Source: Pseudomonadota bacterium
GTDB lineage: Bacteria; Desulfobacterota; Binatia; Binatales; Binataceae
Direction: 5' to 3'
Length of the DNA stretch: 64,000 nt
NCBI GenBank assembly: GCA_021323945.1
Contig: JAJPKA010000020.1
Coordinates: 744,001 to 808,000 of the forward strand
A model generated the notes under the pieces. That model saw only the letters and a list, made by a program, of their open reading frames with translations, did no database searches and was not told the origin of the DNA. Positions 27,623 through 32,172 of this stretch are shown one piece after another (within the stretch, counting starts at the first letter, position 1; every line of letters starts with the position of its first letter). The translations under genes were made by a program, and so were the position numbers.

Positions 27623-28750
27623 ATGGAATACAACGTCATCGACGCAGACGGTCATGTTCTGGAACCGCCCGATCTATGGGAACGGTACATTGACCCGAAA
27701 TTTCGCGACATTTGCCCGAAGGTGTTGGTGACCGAAGACGGAGGGGAGATCCTGCGTATTGAGGGCGATGATGCAATAGATCTGGGTCGCGGCAAAAAAC
27801 CCATCAAACTCGGTGGACTCGGAACCTTCGGCGCGCGTGCGGGCGGGATTAACTCTTTTCGAGTCGCTTACCTTGAAGGTAAGCGCGGAGGTTTTGACCC
27901 TCACGCGCGGATTGCTGACATGGACGCTGAGGGAATCGATGCCGCCTTCCTTTATCCGAGCCTTGGCTTGTTTTTAGGCGCGACCAAGGATCCTGAATTT
28001 TCCGCCGCCGCTTGCCGCGCATACAATCGCTGGCTGGCCGATTATTGTAAGCCTTATCCAGACCGGCTTTTCGGCGCGGCAATGCTGCCGATGCAGTCCG
28101 TTGAGTACCTGGTTGACGAAATGATGTTCGCAGCCAAGGAATTAGGCTTTCGATGCGGCTTCATCCGCCCCAATCCGTACAACGGGCGTGTGCTCCACGA
28201 CCCTGCCTACGATCCGCTATGGGAAGCGGCTCAGGACATGAACTTTTCTATCGGCATTCATGGCGGTTCAGAAAGCGGACAGCCGACTCTTGGGTTCGAC
28301 CGCTTTACCAAAGGATTCGCGGTGCGGCATCTGGTCGCACACACGTTCGAGATGATGGCGGCGGCTACCAGCCTGATCATGTGCGGTGTGTGTGACCGCT
28401 TTCCTAAACTTCGCATTGCGTTCCTCGAATCCGGAGGGGGGTGGATGGCCGGGTGGTTGGACCGAATGGACCGGCATTTTGACGATGTTGGCATGAACGA
28501 CACGGGCTTGAAGACGCGGCCCAGCGAAATCTTCCGCCGGCAATGCTTCATCTCGTTCGAACCGGTGGAAGGTTCGCTTAAACATTTGGCCGATTACATC
28601 GGTTCCGAAAATATTCTATGGGCAACCGACTATCCTCATGCAGATGGGTTTCCCGATGCGCCAAATATGATCAAGCGGATGGGGTTGCCTCCCGAAACGC
28701 TGGCGAATGTGCTGGCCGGAGGCGCCAAGCGTTATTACAACCTCCATTGA
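27623..28750 (+). CDS. Amidohydrolase-2 family metal-dependent hydrolase
   Basis: 375-residue TIM-barrel protein of the amidohydrolase-2 (PF04909-like) family. The metal motif is at the start (VIDADGHVLEP, here DxDGH rather than the usual DxHxH), with IGIHGG in the middle and the last metal Asp in ILWATDYPHADG. Such proteins include decarboxylases and hydrolases of aromatic compounds, and are very numerous in some uncultured soil lineages. Substrate unknown. It stands alone after leuA, and a hairpin follows the stop codon. Confidence 0.85.
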   Translation: MEYNVIDADGHVLEPPDLWERYIDPKFRDICPKVLVTEDGGEILRIEGDDAIDLGRGKKPIKLGGLGTFGARAGGINSFRVAYLEGKRGGFDPHARIADMDAEGIDAAFLYPSLGLFLGATKDPEFSAAACRAYNRWLADYCKPYPDRLFGAAMLPMQSVEYLVDEMMFAAKELGFRCGFIRPNPYNGRVLHDPAYDPLWEAAQDMNFSIGIHGGSESGQPTLGFDRFTKGFAVRHLVAHTFEMMAAATSLIMCGVCDRFPKLRIAFLESGGGWMAGWLDRMDRHFDDVGMNDTGLKTRPSEIFRRQCFISFEPVEGSLKHLADYIGSENILWATDYPHADGFPDAPNMIKRMGLPPETLANVLAGGAKRYYNLH

Positions 28751-28775
28751 AGCAGGCATTACACTGACATGATCC

Positions 28776-28800
28776 GCGGGCGAGCGGCTTGCTCGCCCGC
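28776..28800. terminator. Perfect GC hairpin after the amidohydrolase gene
   Basis: GCGGGCGAGC pairs perfectly with GCTCGCCCGC around a five-base loop (GGCTT), 25 bases after the stop codon. No T-run follows on either strand, so it may act as a weak or Rho-assisted terminator. Confidence 0.5.
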
Positions 28801-29223
28801 AAACAATATTCGACCATCAGTTCAGAATCCGCGCGTGGCGTTCATCTGGCTGAAACTGATTGGGCACCGCGAGTGAACTCAAGTATCGGGACGCCGTCTT
28901 TCTTCCCGCAACCACGATCTCTTTGACCACTTGATTCGCCAATGCTTGCGAGTATGTGGAAATTGAGTGTGTCGACGATGCTCAAACGCACTCCTGGCAA
29001 TGGCCACGTTCCTGCTCACTTTCAGTTTCAGTCTAGTCTACTCAGTGACAGCGTCACCCCTTAAAGGCGGCCTGCCGGCGGAATAATTTCGTTTTCGCTA
29101 ACGCATATAGTCGTAGTCAACAGTATCAGCCGACGGTAGTGCGGATCGCGCTATGGGCACGTGATTCGTACCAGATTTAGGTCAGCTGCCCCAGGCAAAA
29201 CATTCTATTTGAAGACTAGCTAA
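28801..29223. other. Intergenic stretch upstream of the sensor-like cassette
   Basis: About 420 bases without a recognised gene. A 28-codon frame at 29000-29086 (MATFLLTFSFSLVYS...) resembles a hydrophobic leader but has no clear ribosome binding site and no second support, so it is not called. The promoter of the downstream cassette is presumably here; no convincing boxes were found. Confidence 0.4.
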
Positions 29224-29640
29224 GTGACTAACTGGACATGCGGATGGCCGCTTGGTCTGCCGACAAGTGTGGCCTGGCTGCCGCACGGGGTTTGCCTACA
29301 ATGGCAATGGCCACTGTTGCTGGCGCTGGTGGTGGCGAACTTGGGGATCGGTTTGGCTTACACCCTGATACCCCTGGCGCTAATTCGCTGCATCCGACAT
29401 TTGCCCCGTGTACTGCGGCCAGGCACGTTCCTGCTGCACTTTTTCGCGGCTTTTATTCTGTCCTGCGGACTCACCCATGTAATGTCAGTCGTCGTCATCT
29501 GGTGCCCCTGGTATTACTGGCAAGCGGTTTTGGACCTGTGGACCGCAGGCATATCGCTCTACACAGCCTGTTTACTGTGGTGGCTGCCCGCGGTGATTGA
29601 CCAGATCCGGGAGGCACTCAGTGGAATCGAAAGTCATTAA
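29224..29640 (+). CDS. Ethylene-receptor-like three-helix membrane sensor domain
   Basis: 138 residues with three membrane helices (about 28-55, 67-93, 99-123). The sequence follows the N-terminal sensor domain of plant ETR1 and cyanobacterial relatives: GLAYTLIPLALI in helix 1 and FFAAFILSCGLTH in helix 2. The copper/ethylene residues Cys and His are kept (C81, H85), as are Tyr, Ile and Pro of helix 1 (Y46, I49, P50); the usual helix-1 Asp is Asn (N39). In known proteins this domain is fused to GAF/PAS and histidine kinase modules; here it stands alone. Start is a GTG without a strong ribosome binding site. It overlaps the next gene by 20 bases. Confidence 0.8.
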   Translation: MTNWTCGWPLGLPTSVAWLPHGVCLQWQWPLLLALVVANLGIGLAYTLIPLALIRCIRHLPRVLRPGTFLLHFFAAFILSCGLTHVMSVVVIWCPWYYWQAVLDLWTAGISLYTACLLWWLPAVIDQIREALSGIESH

Positions 29641-29917
29641 TTGGCTGAGCGACGGACGGAATCTGCTGATAACGCTATTGGCCGCCGCCGTAGCGGTGTT
29701 ATCTGTGCTCGTTACACTTGCGGCGTTTTCTGCCGCGACTGCCCCAAGTCCCTATGAACGGAAGGATGCAGCGGAAGCTGCCCGGGCGGAGCTCCGGGAT
29801 CGGATCAACGCGGAACTTGCGAATCAAACTATCATCAATCGCGATCTTTATTCGCAACTTGATGATTTGAGGATGGAACTTTCGAAAACGCAACGAAGCA
29901 AGAAAGATGGGCGCTGA
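29621..29917 (+). CDS. Single-helix membrane protein with coiled coil
   Basis: 98 residues: one N-terminal membrane helix (about 15-38, LLITLLAAAVAVLSVLVTLA) and a charged helical tail (about 48-92) that would form a coiled coil on one side of the membrane. GGGAGG lies six bases before the GTG at 29621, which decides the start. Not recognised as a family member. It overlaps the sensor-like gene before it and the PAS gene after it (11 bases), so the proteins are probably translated together. Confidence 0.7.
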   Translation: MESKVINWLSDGRNLLITLLAAAVAVLSVLVTLAAFSAATAPSPYERKDAAEAARAELRDRINAELANQTIINRDLYSQLDDLRMELSKTQRSKKDGR

Positions 29918-30350
29918 CAAAAAAGATGCTGATGGGATCGATCTTAAGGATTTGGCTCAAAGACTCGAACGTGCTGAGCTGGAAGTACTCTCGCTGAAGG
30001 TCCGCGGACTCACGTTGCTGGAAACGTCGCTCGACGGCGTCCTCATAGTAGATAACAAGGGTCGCATTCTGGCAGCCAACTCGCGGGCTTGCGAGATGTT
30101 TGGTTATCCGCGCGATGAACTGCTTTTTCAGATCGTTGAAATATTGGTGCCTGAACAGCAGCGTGCTGCTCATGTCCATCATCGCCACGGTTACAATCTT
30201 TCACCCAAGTCGCGGCCGATGGGCCAGGGAATTGCGATGGGGCTGCAGGGACAACGCAAGGACGGATCCCTGTTTCACATCGGGATCAGTCTAAACCGCA
30301 TATCGGTTGAGGGCACGCCGGTCACGTGCCTGGTGTGCACTGAATTATGA
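29907..30350 (+). CDS. Stand-alone PAS domain protein
   Basis: 147 residues: a short helical lead (about 10-35) and one PAS domain (from about 36: LLETSLDGVLIVDNKGRIL, ANSRACEMFGYPRDELL, then RKDGSLFHIGISLNRISV). There is no kinase, cyclase or other output domain. PAS domains bind small ligands or mediate contacts, so this may be a soluble signal or adaptor subunit. Sequence is closest to generic PAS_9/S-box types. Its stop overlaps the next start (ATGA). Confidence 0.82.
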   Translation: MGADKKDADGIDLKDLAQRLERAELEVLSLKVRGLTLLETSLDGVLIVDNKGRILAANSRACEMFGYPRDELLFQIVEILVPEQQRAAHVHHRHGYNLSPKSRPMGQGIAMGLQGQRKDGSLFHIGISLNRISVEGTPVTCLVCTEL

Positions 30351-30628
30351 GCAATCTGCCGCCTTATAGCCCCACCGACTATGAGGCGCTCTACCGCCAG
30401 AGCGTGATCGATCGGCTCGACAAATTGGACAAGCGGTGTGAGGAAATGGCGGTGCGGCTCAATGAGCAGAATAGCCAGCTGGTCAGCGACATGAACCAAC
30501 TGCGAGTGGACCTGAGCGTGGTCGAGGCAGTACTGCGAATCAAAGCAGGCATTTGGGGAGCGAGTTCCGGCCTGGCGGCTGGACTGATGATGGTGCTTAT
30601 TTTCCTACTTACCAAAATTATCAAATGA
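30347..30628 (+). CDS. Coiled-coil protein with C-terminal membrane anchor
   Basis: 93 residues: a helical, charged part (about 15-62, DRLDKLDKRCEEMAVRLNEQ) and a C-terminal membrane helix (about 68-92, ending LLTKIIK). The layout recalls XhlA-type phage lysis or holin-associated proteins, and also tail-anchored scaffold proteins; neither is proven. ATGA overlap with the PAS gene and a three-base gap to the next gene place it in one operon. Confidence 0.7.
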   Translation: MSNLPPYSPTDYEALYRQSVIDRLDKLDKRCEEMAVRLNEQNSQLVSDMNQLRVDLSVVEAVLRIKAGIWGASSGLAAGLMMVLIFLLTKIIK

Positions 30629-30631
30629 CTA

Positions 30632-30892
30632 ATGGATGATCACCAAACGAGACTATTACTCGTGCTAACCCTCACCAGCCTGGTAATGCTGACGCTGAGC
30701 CTGTGGATGGCGTGGTCGGTCCGGCGCGAAGTCCGCCGGCTGGTGGCTTACGTCAGTAATCATATGGAAGGTCTGGTGCAAAAACAGCACGAAGTGTTGC
30801 GAGAAGTTGCTGGTGCGGCGAGCCGAGAAGCCGATATTCAGACAGCAACCGAACGGGTCCGCCTGATCGCCGCAAAGCGAATTTTGCCGTGA
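30632..30892 (+). CDS. N-terminally anchored coiled-coil protein
   Basis: 86 residues: a membrane helix at about 7-27 (LLLVLTLTSLVMLTLSLWMAW) followed by a charged helical tail (about 30-82). Family not recognised. It is the last gene of the five-gene cassette; the anchor is at the opposite end from that of the preceding protein, so the two coils could meet. A strong hairpin lies 65 bases after its stop. Confidence 0.65.
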   Translation: MDDHQTRLLLVLTLTSLVMLTLSLWMAWSVRREVRRLVAYVSNHMEGLVQKQHEVLREVAGAASREADIQTATERVRLIAAKRILP

Positions 30893-30957
30893 ACGCTGCC
30901 AGCCGGCCTCTGCGTTTACAGATTTGGTCTTAGTGCATCGGTCTCGGATTAGCTCAA

Positions 30958-30990
30958 CGGGAGAGGAGCAGCACTTTTACTCCTCTTCCG
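30958..30990. terminator. Hairpin between converging genes
   Basis: An 11-bp stem (CGGGAGAGGAG with CTCCTCTTCCG, one G-T pair) around an 11-base loop, located between the end of the cassette and the converging GST gene. No T-run. The 5' flank (TTAGCTCAACGGGAGAG) resembles a tRNA D-arm, discussed separately. Confidence 0.4.
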
Positions 30991-31040
30991 GTTGAGGCAC
31001 AGATTGTGACCAAAGGTCTCGCTTATGGTGGAAGTGACCG

Positions 31041-31793
31041 TTATTGCTGAACGCTTTCCAGCCATTCCTTCGGGATCGGCTGCGCTCGCTGATGGGTGAG
31101 CAGTTTGGCTCGTCGCGCGCGTTCCTCGGCCGAGATTGTTGCTGGATCCTCGCGATATTCGGGTCCGGCGGCCATTGCTTTCTTGACTGCTGGCCGCTCT
31201 CCAATTTCGTCCATCCAGCGCTTGACGTTGGGAAATTCGTTGATATCAATGTTGCGGCCCTGGAGCGTTACCGCCCACGGATAGCAAATCATATCGGCGA
31301 TGGTGTATTCGCCGGCTGCGAGATAGCGCTTGTTGAACAACCCCAGGTTCATCACACCGTACAGTCGATGCACCTCGCTGTCGAATCTCAGCAATGCGTA
31401 TGACAGGTCGCCGTTCTTGCCGCCCTCGGCGGCTCGATGGAAATGTCCCTGCTCGCCGAATTTCGGTCCCTGGTTGGCCATCTGCCACATGATCCACTGA
31501 GTTACTTCGTACTTGCGACGTGGGTCCTGAGGCCAGAACTTTCCGGTTTTCTCAGCGATATACATCATTATTGCGCCCGACTCGAAAATCGAAATCGGAG
31601 CCCCGCCGCCCAGCGGTTCATGATCGACAATGGCGGGCATGCGGCCATTGGGTGAGATTTTCAAGAACCATGGTGCGAGCTGGTCGCCTCGCGCTATGTT
31701 GATGGGCTTGATAGTGTATGGGATTCCACATTCTTCAAGCAAAATAGTAACTTTTTTTCCGTTTGGTGTAGGCCAGTAGTACAGATCAATCAT
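31041..31793 (-). CDS. Glutathione S-transferase family protein (YfcG/Ure2-like)
   Basis: 250 residues: N-terminal thioredoxin-fold domain (LYYWPTPNGKKVTILLEE, with NGRMPAIVD and the glutathione-contact block ESGAIMMYIAEKTG) and an all-helical C-terminal domain (YTIADMICYPW). Members of this subgroup act as disulfide reductases or in detoxification. The ATG at 31793 has AGGAGAG upstream. It is a single gene running toward the sensor-like cassette; no operon partner is seen. Confidence 0.9.
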   Translation of the reverse strand: MIDLYYWPTPNGKKVTILLEECGIPYTIKPINIARGDQLAPWFLKISPNGRMPAIVDHEPLGGGAPISIFESGAIMMYIAEKTGKFWPQDPRRKYEVTQWIMWQMANQGPKFGEQGHFHRAAEGGKNGDLSYALLRFDSEVHRLYGVMNLGLFNKRYLAAGEYTIADMICYPWAVTLQGRNIDINEFPNVKRWMDEIGERPAVKKAMAAGPEYREDPATISAEERARRAKLLTHQRAQPIPKEWLESVQQ

Positions 31794-32079
31794 TTCGCTC
31801 TCCTCACAGACTTTTACCTACTGCCGAGACAATCCCGGGAGCGAGGCCTGTTCGCTCTTGAGCAACATGCGCTGATAGGGCACGGGTGACAAGAGGCGCC
31901 CGACCTTTGCGAGCCTATTTTCGTGCGCCAGTCGCGGCCTTAATTGAGCAACGTGATTGACGCGGTTACTGGATATAAACCATTGCCATTGGTGAATGAA
32001 GACAGACCATCGGCGAAGGTGCGGTGCTTCTCCATTCCAAGGTAGATTGCGGCTGGGCGCGCCTGATCTCTTAAAATAC

Positions 32080-32172
32080 GGAGGGGGGAGGGAGTCGAAC
32101 CCTCCGGCGACAGTATTAGCCGCCAAGCCGGTTTTGAAGACCGGTGGGGCCACCGGGCCCCTTCCTCCTCCA
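32080..32172 (-). tRNA. selC: tRNA-Sec (anticodon TCA)
   Basis: 93 bases with all hallmarks of selenocysteine tRNA: an eight-base acceptor arm (GGAGGAGG with CCCCCTCC, one A-C mismatch), an extended six-bp D-stem (GGGGCC with GGCCCC) closing a four-base loop, anticodon loop CTTCAAA with UCA, a long variable arm (about 22 bases with a GGCGGC stem), T-loop TTCGACT and discriminator G. CCA is not encoded. It implies that the organism inserts selenocysteine at UGA codons; selA/selB/selD are not in the window. Confidence 0.93.

Follow-up and report, generated by a model that had tools for sequence, protein, structure and literature searches.

A cassette of five consecutive small genes was found on the forward strand at positions 29,224 to 30,892 of a 64,000-nucleotide window, the whole stretch of DNA analysed here (G000:C8:744001-808000), from a bacterium of the family Binataceae whose genome (G000, assembly GCA_021323945.1; 3.74 Mb in 22 contigs) is called the source genome below. 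The cassette is read, with a probability of about 0.45, as a membrane sensor cassette of phage type, lacking a kinase and now standing alone in a bacterial chromosome. By sequence comparison, gene 1 was shown to encode the sensor domain of ethylene receptors (ETR1_N) without an output domain, and homologues of genes 2 and 4 were shown to be neighbours in a phage tail module. Stand-alone ETR1_N genes were likewise shown, from the contigs compared, to recur in phages, often beside anchored coil proteins and in a few cases beside a gene-4 homologue or a PAS gene. The five open reading frames (ORFs) overlap by 20, 11 and 4 bases, with a gap of 3 bases before the last one, and the coordinates and spacing given in the first-pass annotation, made from the sequence of the window, agreed with the ORF list. 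The lowest G+C was found at the second codon position in all five genes, and likewise in both upstream genes checked.

Gene 1, gene 3 and their cellular relatives

Gene 1 (29224-29640, +; 138 aa, GTG start) was found to match the Pfam family ETR1_N (PF25487) at E 3.4e-20 with 72.5 bits against a cut-off of 27, which makes it a member of the family. ETR1_N was the sole domain of the ORF, and the output domain of an ethylene receptor was absent. The AlphaFold2 model, made from 60 aligned sequences (the window, 25 from viral contigs and 34 cellular), had a mean predicted local distance difference test (pLDDT) score of 87.6 and contained helices at residues 29-57, 62-93, 97-119 and 121-136, that is, three long helices followed by a shorter fourth one. 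No match of gene 1 at E <= 1 was found in the PDB or in PHROGs v4.

The copper site of ETR1 consists of Asp25, Cys65 and His69, according to the accessible part of PMC12643061. In the alignment, Cys81 and His85 of gene 1 were found at the same spacing as the Cys and His of this site. The residues of gene 1 were mapped onto ETR1 by motif and spacing. In a set of 28 ETR1_N proteins that are stand-alone or come from phages, gene 1 being one of them, Cys81, His85 and Tyr46 were kept in all 28, Cys24 in 27 and His21 in 25; Cys81 and His85 are part of the motif used for the viral scan, and Tyr46, Cys24 and His21 lie outside it.

Gene 3 (29907-30350, +; 147 aa) was found to encode a stand-alone PAS domain (Pfam PF00989, E 4e-12), so that the two module types named in the first-pass annotation, an ethylene-receptor-like sensor and a PAS domain, were both confirmed by Pfam. 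PDB matches were obtained at E of about 1e-9, with DosP and FixL as the closest solved proteins. His89 aligned with the histidine of DosP and FixL that we take to be the haem ligand, which points to a putative proximal histidine. The likeness to these haem PAS domains lies in the overall sequence and in this residue; gene 3 differs from them in standing alone.

Sensor, PAS and kinase are contained in one protein in AzoEtr1 of Azospirillum brasilense, as described in the accessible part of PMC11819568. The cassette shares with the bacterial ethylene receptors (AzoEtr1; SynEtr1 of Synechocystis) a three-helix sensor, the Cys-x3-His motif and a PAS domain among its parts, but its sensor and PAS are on separate genes, the kinase is missing, coils are added and Asn occupies the Asp25 position. 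The earlier statement that no kinase lies beside the cassette held for positions 26-35 kb, where none was evident from reading the ORF list, the neighbours being judged without profile searches. The contrast with kinase-fused receptors that it had drawn was borne out in two cellular samples. In a GTDB scan at least 590 stretches matched, at least 558 of them relatives, and the best 80 were kept; 75 of these contained closed frames, each of at least 322 codons from stop to stop, and 5 ran off the stretch. As judged from their sequences, these best 80 matches are fused proteins. Among 398 Pseudomonadota genomes, 29 contained an ETR1_N match (28 above the cut-off); 30 of the 31 rows above the cut-off lay in frames of at least 401 codons, and the other was a 26-position fragment in a 48-codon frame.

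Closer to the source genome, a match to gene 1 was found in its own genome only among 38 genomes, the other 37 relatives being all without one. Of 297 genomes of the source phylum, 4 contained a match to the ETR1_N family and 2 were above the cut-off, namely the source genome and G153, which contained two copies in frames of 820 and 433 codons. The weak matches in G041 and G216 were rejected, being different proteins by reading. ETR1_N matches were also present in 18 plasmid records, six of which were read. Two Acaryochloris plasmid frames were shorter (298 and 264 codons); one adjoins an IS1 transposase gene and the other precedes a separately annotated kinase piece.

In a tree of 60 domains, gene 1 was found to group with L014 (Obscuribacterales) and L015 (a cyanobacterial metagenome-assembled genome) with support of 100/97; both are fused kinases by reading, and these nearest fused relatives also contained Asn at the Asp25 position by reading. 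On this tree 6 changes are required to account for the 25 viral rows, and starred branches force 3 or more of them; several rows have long end branches, the bootstrap had not settled and the bacterial rows were the best matches to gene 1. Stand-alone ETR1_N seems, from these placements, to have arisen more than once, and gene 1 is probably a separate trimming of a fused receptor that was joined to a phage-type coil pair. As gene 1 groups with fused receptors of bacteria, cassettes of this kind would appear to have come together on more than one occasion.

The anchored coil genes and the sister genome

Gene 2 (29621-29917, +; 98 aa, GTG start) was found to encode an N-anchored protein with a single transmembrane (TM) segment and a coil-like remainder; an alternative TTG start at 29597 would give 106 aa. 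Gene 4 (30347-30628, +; 93 aa) encodes a coil with a C-terminal TM segment of the 'IKAGIWG' family, and gene 5 (30632-30892, +; 86 aa) an N-anchored single-TM protein whose remainder is coil-like by hydropathy and composition. No Pfam family was found above the cut-off for any of the three, whose module types agree with those given in the first-pass annotation. Gene 4 resembles the small membrane coil proteins of phages with an XhlA-like layout in consisting of a coil and one TM segment, in its occurrence in viral contigs and in its place beside tail genes. It differs from them in matching no XhlA profile at E <= 1, and the XhlA family label of the first-pass annotation was dropped, the resemblance being one of layout only.

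Homologues of gene 4 were found in six viral loci; within the class, 2 genomes out of 148 have one, namely the source genome and G001, a sister species of the same genus. Gene 4 was 51% identical to protein P0009 of G001, and gene 2 was 41% identical to P0008 of G001 over 80 aa. On contig C187 of G001 (locus L096), the gene-2 homologue followed by the gene-4 homologue was found between the genes for Phage_base_V and GPW_gp25. Against a profile of five viral members, gene 4 scored 48.1 bits, and the best of 500 shuffles scored 15.7. A gene-4 profile applied to the viral loci included P0025 of locus L213 and not the homologue of L216; gene 4 and P0025 were also compared directly. A search of the class for gene 2 with both sequences as query yielded 3 of 148 genomes, the two query members and one weak partial match. 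With the same two-sequence query no relative of gene 2 was found in viral contigs, and exact-peptide searches of viral contigs yielded no relative of gene 1 or gene 5. When gene 5 was compared pairwise with a coil encoded in phage locus L204, a weak similarity (E 6e-4) was seen. From these homologies, a phage-type origin of genes 2 and 4 is considered highly probable.

A 914-aa protein, alanine-rich and repetitive, is encoded next to the tail genes in G001 (L096:441-3185); neither Pfam nor PHROGs gave a match to it at E <= 0.1. The source genome contains a contractile-tail module of its own (L145, G000:C7:44500-64000), with a gp25 match and with baseplate-V-like and spike-like ORFs by reading. 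In this module a lipoprotein-like gene (by reading) occupies the slot that holds the coil pair in G001, so the content of the baseplate-V/gp25 slot varies between the two. A further gp25 match was observed in G001 in a type VI secretion-like gene set by reading (L146, G001:C204).

G001 contained no ETR1_N match and no PAS gene between its gene-2/gene-4 pair. The genes that flank the cassette in the source genome, which we take to be an amidohydrolase and a glutathione S-transferase (GST) from their sequences, were found adjacent in G001 without the cassette; their proteins share 95% identity over 324 aa and 90% identity, respectively, and the spacer of about 520 bp between them was not alignable. 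The cassette was either gained in the source genome or lost in G001, and gain is favoured by comparison of the genomes, because the cassette is absent from the other relatives.

The surroundings of the cassette in the window are chromosomal metabolic genes by reading, and no endolysin was found beside it in the ORF list by reading. A foreign base composition was rejected, the G+C of the cassette being similar to that of its surroundings. A terminal RNA element was likewise rejected: positions 28700-31400 contained no Rfam match at E <= 1 and no ARAGORN call. Downstream, a tRNA-SeC was called by ARAGORN at 32079-32171 (-) of the window.

Stand-alone ETR1_N genes in viral contigs and cultured phages

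An alignment scan of viral contigs, one of whose two alternative patterns contains PHG.C, yielded five ETR1_N loci, all above the Pfam cut-off, and four of the five proteins were stand-alone (135, 114, 123 and 164 aa), the fifth (352 aa) being joined to a STAS domain. A motif scan yielded 43 stretches, 34 of them at E <= 2.5e-8 with a seven-protein profile. The E-values were calculated for 43 sequences, and the profile was built with gene 1, the proteins of the four re-found loci and Colly_1, which is near-identical to the re-found Molly. The 34 matches included the four stand-alone loci and a 124,695-bp record corresponding to Maribacter phage Molly. As the scan motif includes F74, F77, I78, C81, G/A82, H85 and A108, the conservation of these residues in the matches is by construction. 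Closed frames of 116-213 codons from stop to stop were found in 25 of the 34 confident matches, among which L220 is partial and L185/L196 and L205/L212 are duplicates. Among the rest, L197 and L209 run off the stretch and L203, L190 and L201 contained frames of 253, 297 and 279 codons. The IMG/VR contigs L192, L221, L223 and L195 contained long ETR1_N frames that read as kinases and may be cargo of a phage or DNA of a host. The 352-aa protein observed in another IMG/VR contig, of 91 kb (L105:4833-5891), consists of ETR1_N, a coil-like linker and STAS.

Among cultured phages, a 289-aa hypothetical protein with an ETR1_N match (E 3e-16) was found in Maribacter phages, in eight records of INPHARED (Colly_1 and Molly_1 to Molly_5, two also as RefSeq copies). 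The gene for this protein shares 4 bp with that of an N-anchored coil, and 3 bp separate its end from an Amidase_3 endolysin gene. In the accessible part of the isolation paper (PMC8776804), the amidase is the only lysis gene listed for Molly, several proteins with 1-4 TM domains are described near the lysins of that phage set, and no integrase is listed for the Maribacter phages. The genes gp062-gp063-gp064 of Colly_1 and Molly are like the cassette in that an ETR1_N protein gene overlaps an N-anchored coil gene without a kinase; they differ in that gp063 contains about 150 extra residues without a Pfam match, an endolysin comes next and no PAS gene was noted. Of the 135 matches that a viral fold search yielded at E <= 10, a single one reached E <= 0.001; this unnamed protein (E 3.3e-4) has 289 aa, the same length as the Maribacter phage protein. 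Nine phage ETR1_N proteins gave no match in PHROGs v4 at E <= 0.01, and phage ETR1_N thus appears to be a gene family not contained in PHROGs v4. No report of ETR1_N or an ethylene-binding domain in phages was found in the literature searched, with most subscription papers and all preprints outside it.

The L107 record was found to contain a terminase match (phrog_2) together with portal-, capsid- and tape-measure-like ORFs by reading, and other ETR1_N contigs contained tail, baseplate or endolysin genes. The status of L188, L193 and L201 as phage contigs is uncertain.

An anchored coil was counted as a neighbour when it had one TM segment, a coil-like remainder, the same strand and a distance of at most 400 nt. 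By this rule an anchored coil adjoined 17 of 26 viral ETR1_N genes, as against 3 of 73 control ORFs of the same stretches (chosen by length and codon phase, not by annotation) and 2 of 63 testable bacterial fused ETR1_N genes (Fisher 5e-10 for each comparison). With one gene per lineage it was found in 13 of 19 viral lineages, the lineages being our grouping at about 70% identity with L197 also left out. The set of 26 omits L105 (STAS fusion), L209 (runs off), L220 (partial), the four kinase frames, L196 and L212 (proteins same as those of L185 and L205) and L190 (a near copy of Colly_1). No coil passing the rule was found beside L104, L107, L185, L188, L193, L197, L199, L202 and L208; the coil of L185 sits 549 nt off, and the stretch of L197 ends at its ETR1_N gene. 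The rule is home-made, being based on hydropathy, composition and up to six start codons, and it misses members, because genes 2 and 4 were rated only as single-TM (gene 5 passed).

Some loci contained further cassette-like genes. In L216 a gene-4 homologue follows ETR1_N with a 4-bp overlap, followed by a partial lysozyme-like ORF below the cut-off, and in L213 the gene-4 homologue (P0025) lies 268 nt after ETR1_N, which is preceded by a papain-like peptidase. A stand-alone PAS gene overlaps ETR1_N by 4 bp in L107, and in L185 ETR1_N is followed by an N-anchored coil and two stand-alone PAS proteins. The first L185 PAS is supported by Pfam and is 42% identical to gene 3 of the window over 92 aa, the second was assigned by reading, and the L107 PAS lies exactly at two Pfam cut-offs; the PAS profile was built partly from L185 and L107, so its matches there prove nothing.

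A cell-wall hydrolase was found within 2 kb of ETR1_N above the Pfam cut-off in L106, L111, L211, L215 and L219, and as a PHROG amidase (E 5e-21) in L107. The candidates of L103 and L216 were below the cut-off, and those of L104 and L199 had no match; the search covered hand-picked ORFs in 11 of the 19 lineages. The protein P0019 weakly matched Phage_holin_2 below the threshold (E 0.0033, 18.1 bits, cut-off 32), and Rz-like spanins were matched, again weakly, by one coil of L106 (E 0.0025 and 0.007).

Small gene-4-like proteins were also observed between terminase-like and portal-like ORFs by reading (L101:4959-5189 and L102:3479-3709), the position held by ETR1_N and a coil in L205/L212. In L212 the 894-aa phage portal (L212:2701-5385), two genes after the ETR1_N gene, also matched Acb1, a protein that counters the cyclic-oligonucleotide-based anti-phage signalling system (CBASS), at E 1e-32 over residues 518-658, which makes it a portal-Acb1 fusion.

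Origin and role of the cassette

The first-pass annotation had preferred a split receptor assembled at the membrane and kept a phage-derived group as the alternative; the alternative was found to be the better supported with regard to genes 2 and 4 and to their combination with the other genes. The expected recurrence was found in part, pairs and triples of the same kinds of genes being present elsewhere and the five genes in the same order nowhere else. If the cassette is of phage type, the three-helix ETR1_N protein would sit in the inner membrane as a core that responds to a ligand or a metal. The coil proteins with one TM segment (genes 2, 4 and 5) may pair with this core and carry the output in place of a kinase linker, and the PAS protein of gene 3 may supply a second, cytosolic cue. 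In the phages, such a complex would most likely tune a late step run from the inner membrane. Lysis timing is the strongest candidate for this step, given the endolysins found close to several ETR1_N copies. In the source genome the cassette would be a phage-derived remnant or a co-opted cassette. The odds that the proteins form a sensor complex are judged to be even, and control of lysis is held to be doubtful.

Several observations weigh against the phage-type sensor cassette. Asn39 was found to occupy the Asp25 position in gene 1, so that the full copper site is absent. Among the 28 ETR1_N proteins this position contained Asp in 12, Asn in 12, His in 3 and Gly in 1, and ethylene binding cannot be claimed for gene 1, because the position is Asn and varies among relatives. 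Gene 1 groups in the tree with fused kinases and apart from the viral groups, so a simple descent from the phage genes sampled does not explain it. The full five-gene set was absent from all other sequence searched, no phage gene flanks the cassette in the ORF list by reading, and gene 5, from the comparisons above, is without a confident relative. At the limits set, a search of 50,697 phage records gave no match to genes 3 and 4 or to the proteins P0025, P0019 and P0016. The contamination of G001 is 6%, and its contig C187 is only 5.7 kb long. The terminase model (phrog_2) matched one of five viral records and none of the other four. A clear hydrolase was found in 6 of the 11 lineages that were profile-searched out of 19, which is not a systematic count. 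ETR1_N lies between terminase and portal in L205/L212 and beside tail genes in L189 and L185, and the link to lysis is not universal because of these loci.

The place of gene 1 in the tree could also mean that it was freed from its kinase within the host and that the coils dock in trans onto a host kinase or chemoreceptor. This host receptor would explain why L014 and L015 are the closest relatives, why PAS and coils mimic receptor parts and why the genes around the cassette read as chromosomal metabolic genes; it is judged unlikely, since gene 1 was unmatched in all 37 other relatives, genes 2 and 4 are of phage type and similar constructions recur in phages. A part in lysis without sensing is placed on the same unlikely footing: here the three-TM ETR1_N protein would be a holin or antiholin scaffold, with the coils as spanin- or XhlA-like helpers. 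The small membrane proteins near endolysins in several phages, the amidase as the only lysis gene listed for Molly in the accessible part of PMC8776804 and the weak holin and spanin matches of P0019 and the L106 coil agree with this. However, the retention of Cys81, His85 and Tyr46 in 28 of 28 proteins would be needless for a mere pore (the Cys and His being in the scan motif), and PAS genes at two loci and the terminase-portal position in L205/L212 also argue against it.

A moron or superinfection-exclusion cassette, whose membrane proteins would alter or guard the envelope of the lysogen with neither sensing nor lysing, is considered quite improbable. The different small genes of the baseplate-V/gp25 slot in G001 and on C7 of G000 resemble a cargo slot, and the cassette persists alone in a chromosome, but a lytic role fits better with the endolysins adjoining in several phages and with the Maribacter phages, for which no integrase is listed in the accessible part of PMC8776804. 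A decaying prophage scrap or mosaic without function is very improbable: the cassette is isolated, with no other phage genes adjoining, and was not found in relatives, but none of its five frames is interrupted and their codon phase is coding-like, the tight overlaps are retained, and genes 2 and 4 are intact despite identities to the G001 proteins of no more than 41% and 51%.

The phage-type sensor cassette was retained as the preferred reading. Only tentatively, it may be extended to the view that phages carry repeatedly assembled split gas or copper receptors, in which ETR1_N would be wired through anchored coils, at times with PAS, to the lysis or late programme without a kinase, and of which the cassette in the window would be a chromosomal member with three coil proteins. 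The sensor idea is testable directly in a cultured phage (Colly_1 or Molly). If phages use a stand-alone sensor of plant-hormone-receptor type, a gas, copper or redox cue may steer the timing of their action on the host, and a receptor module that signals without a kinase would, if true, be an undescribed way for viruses to sense from the host membrane.

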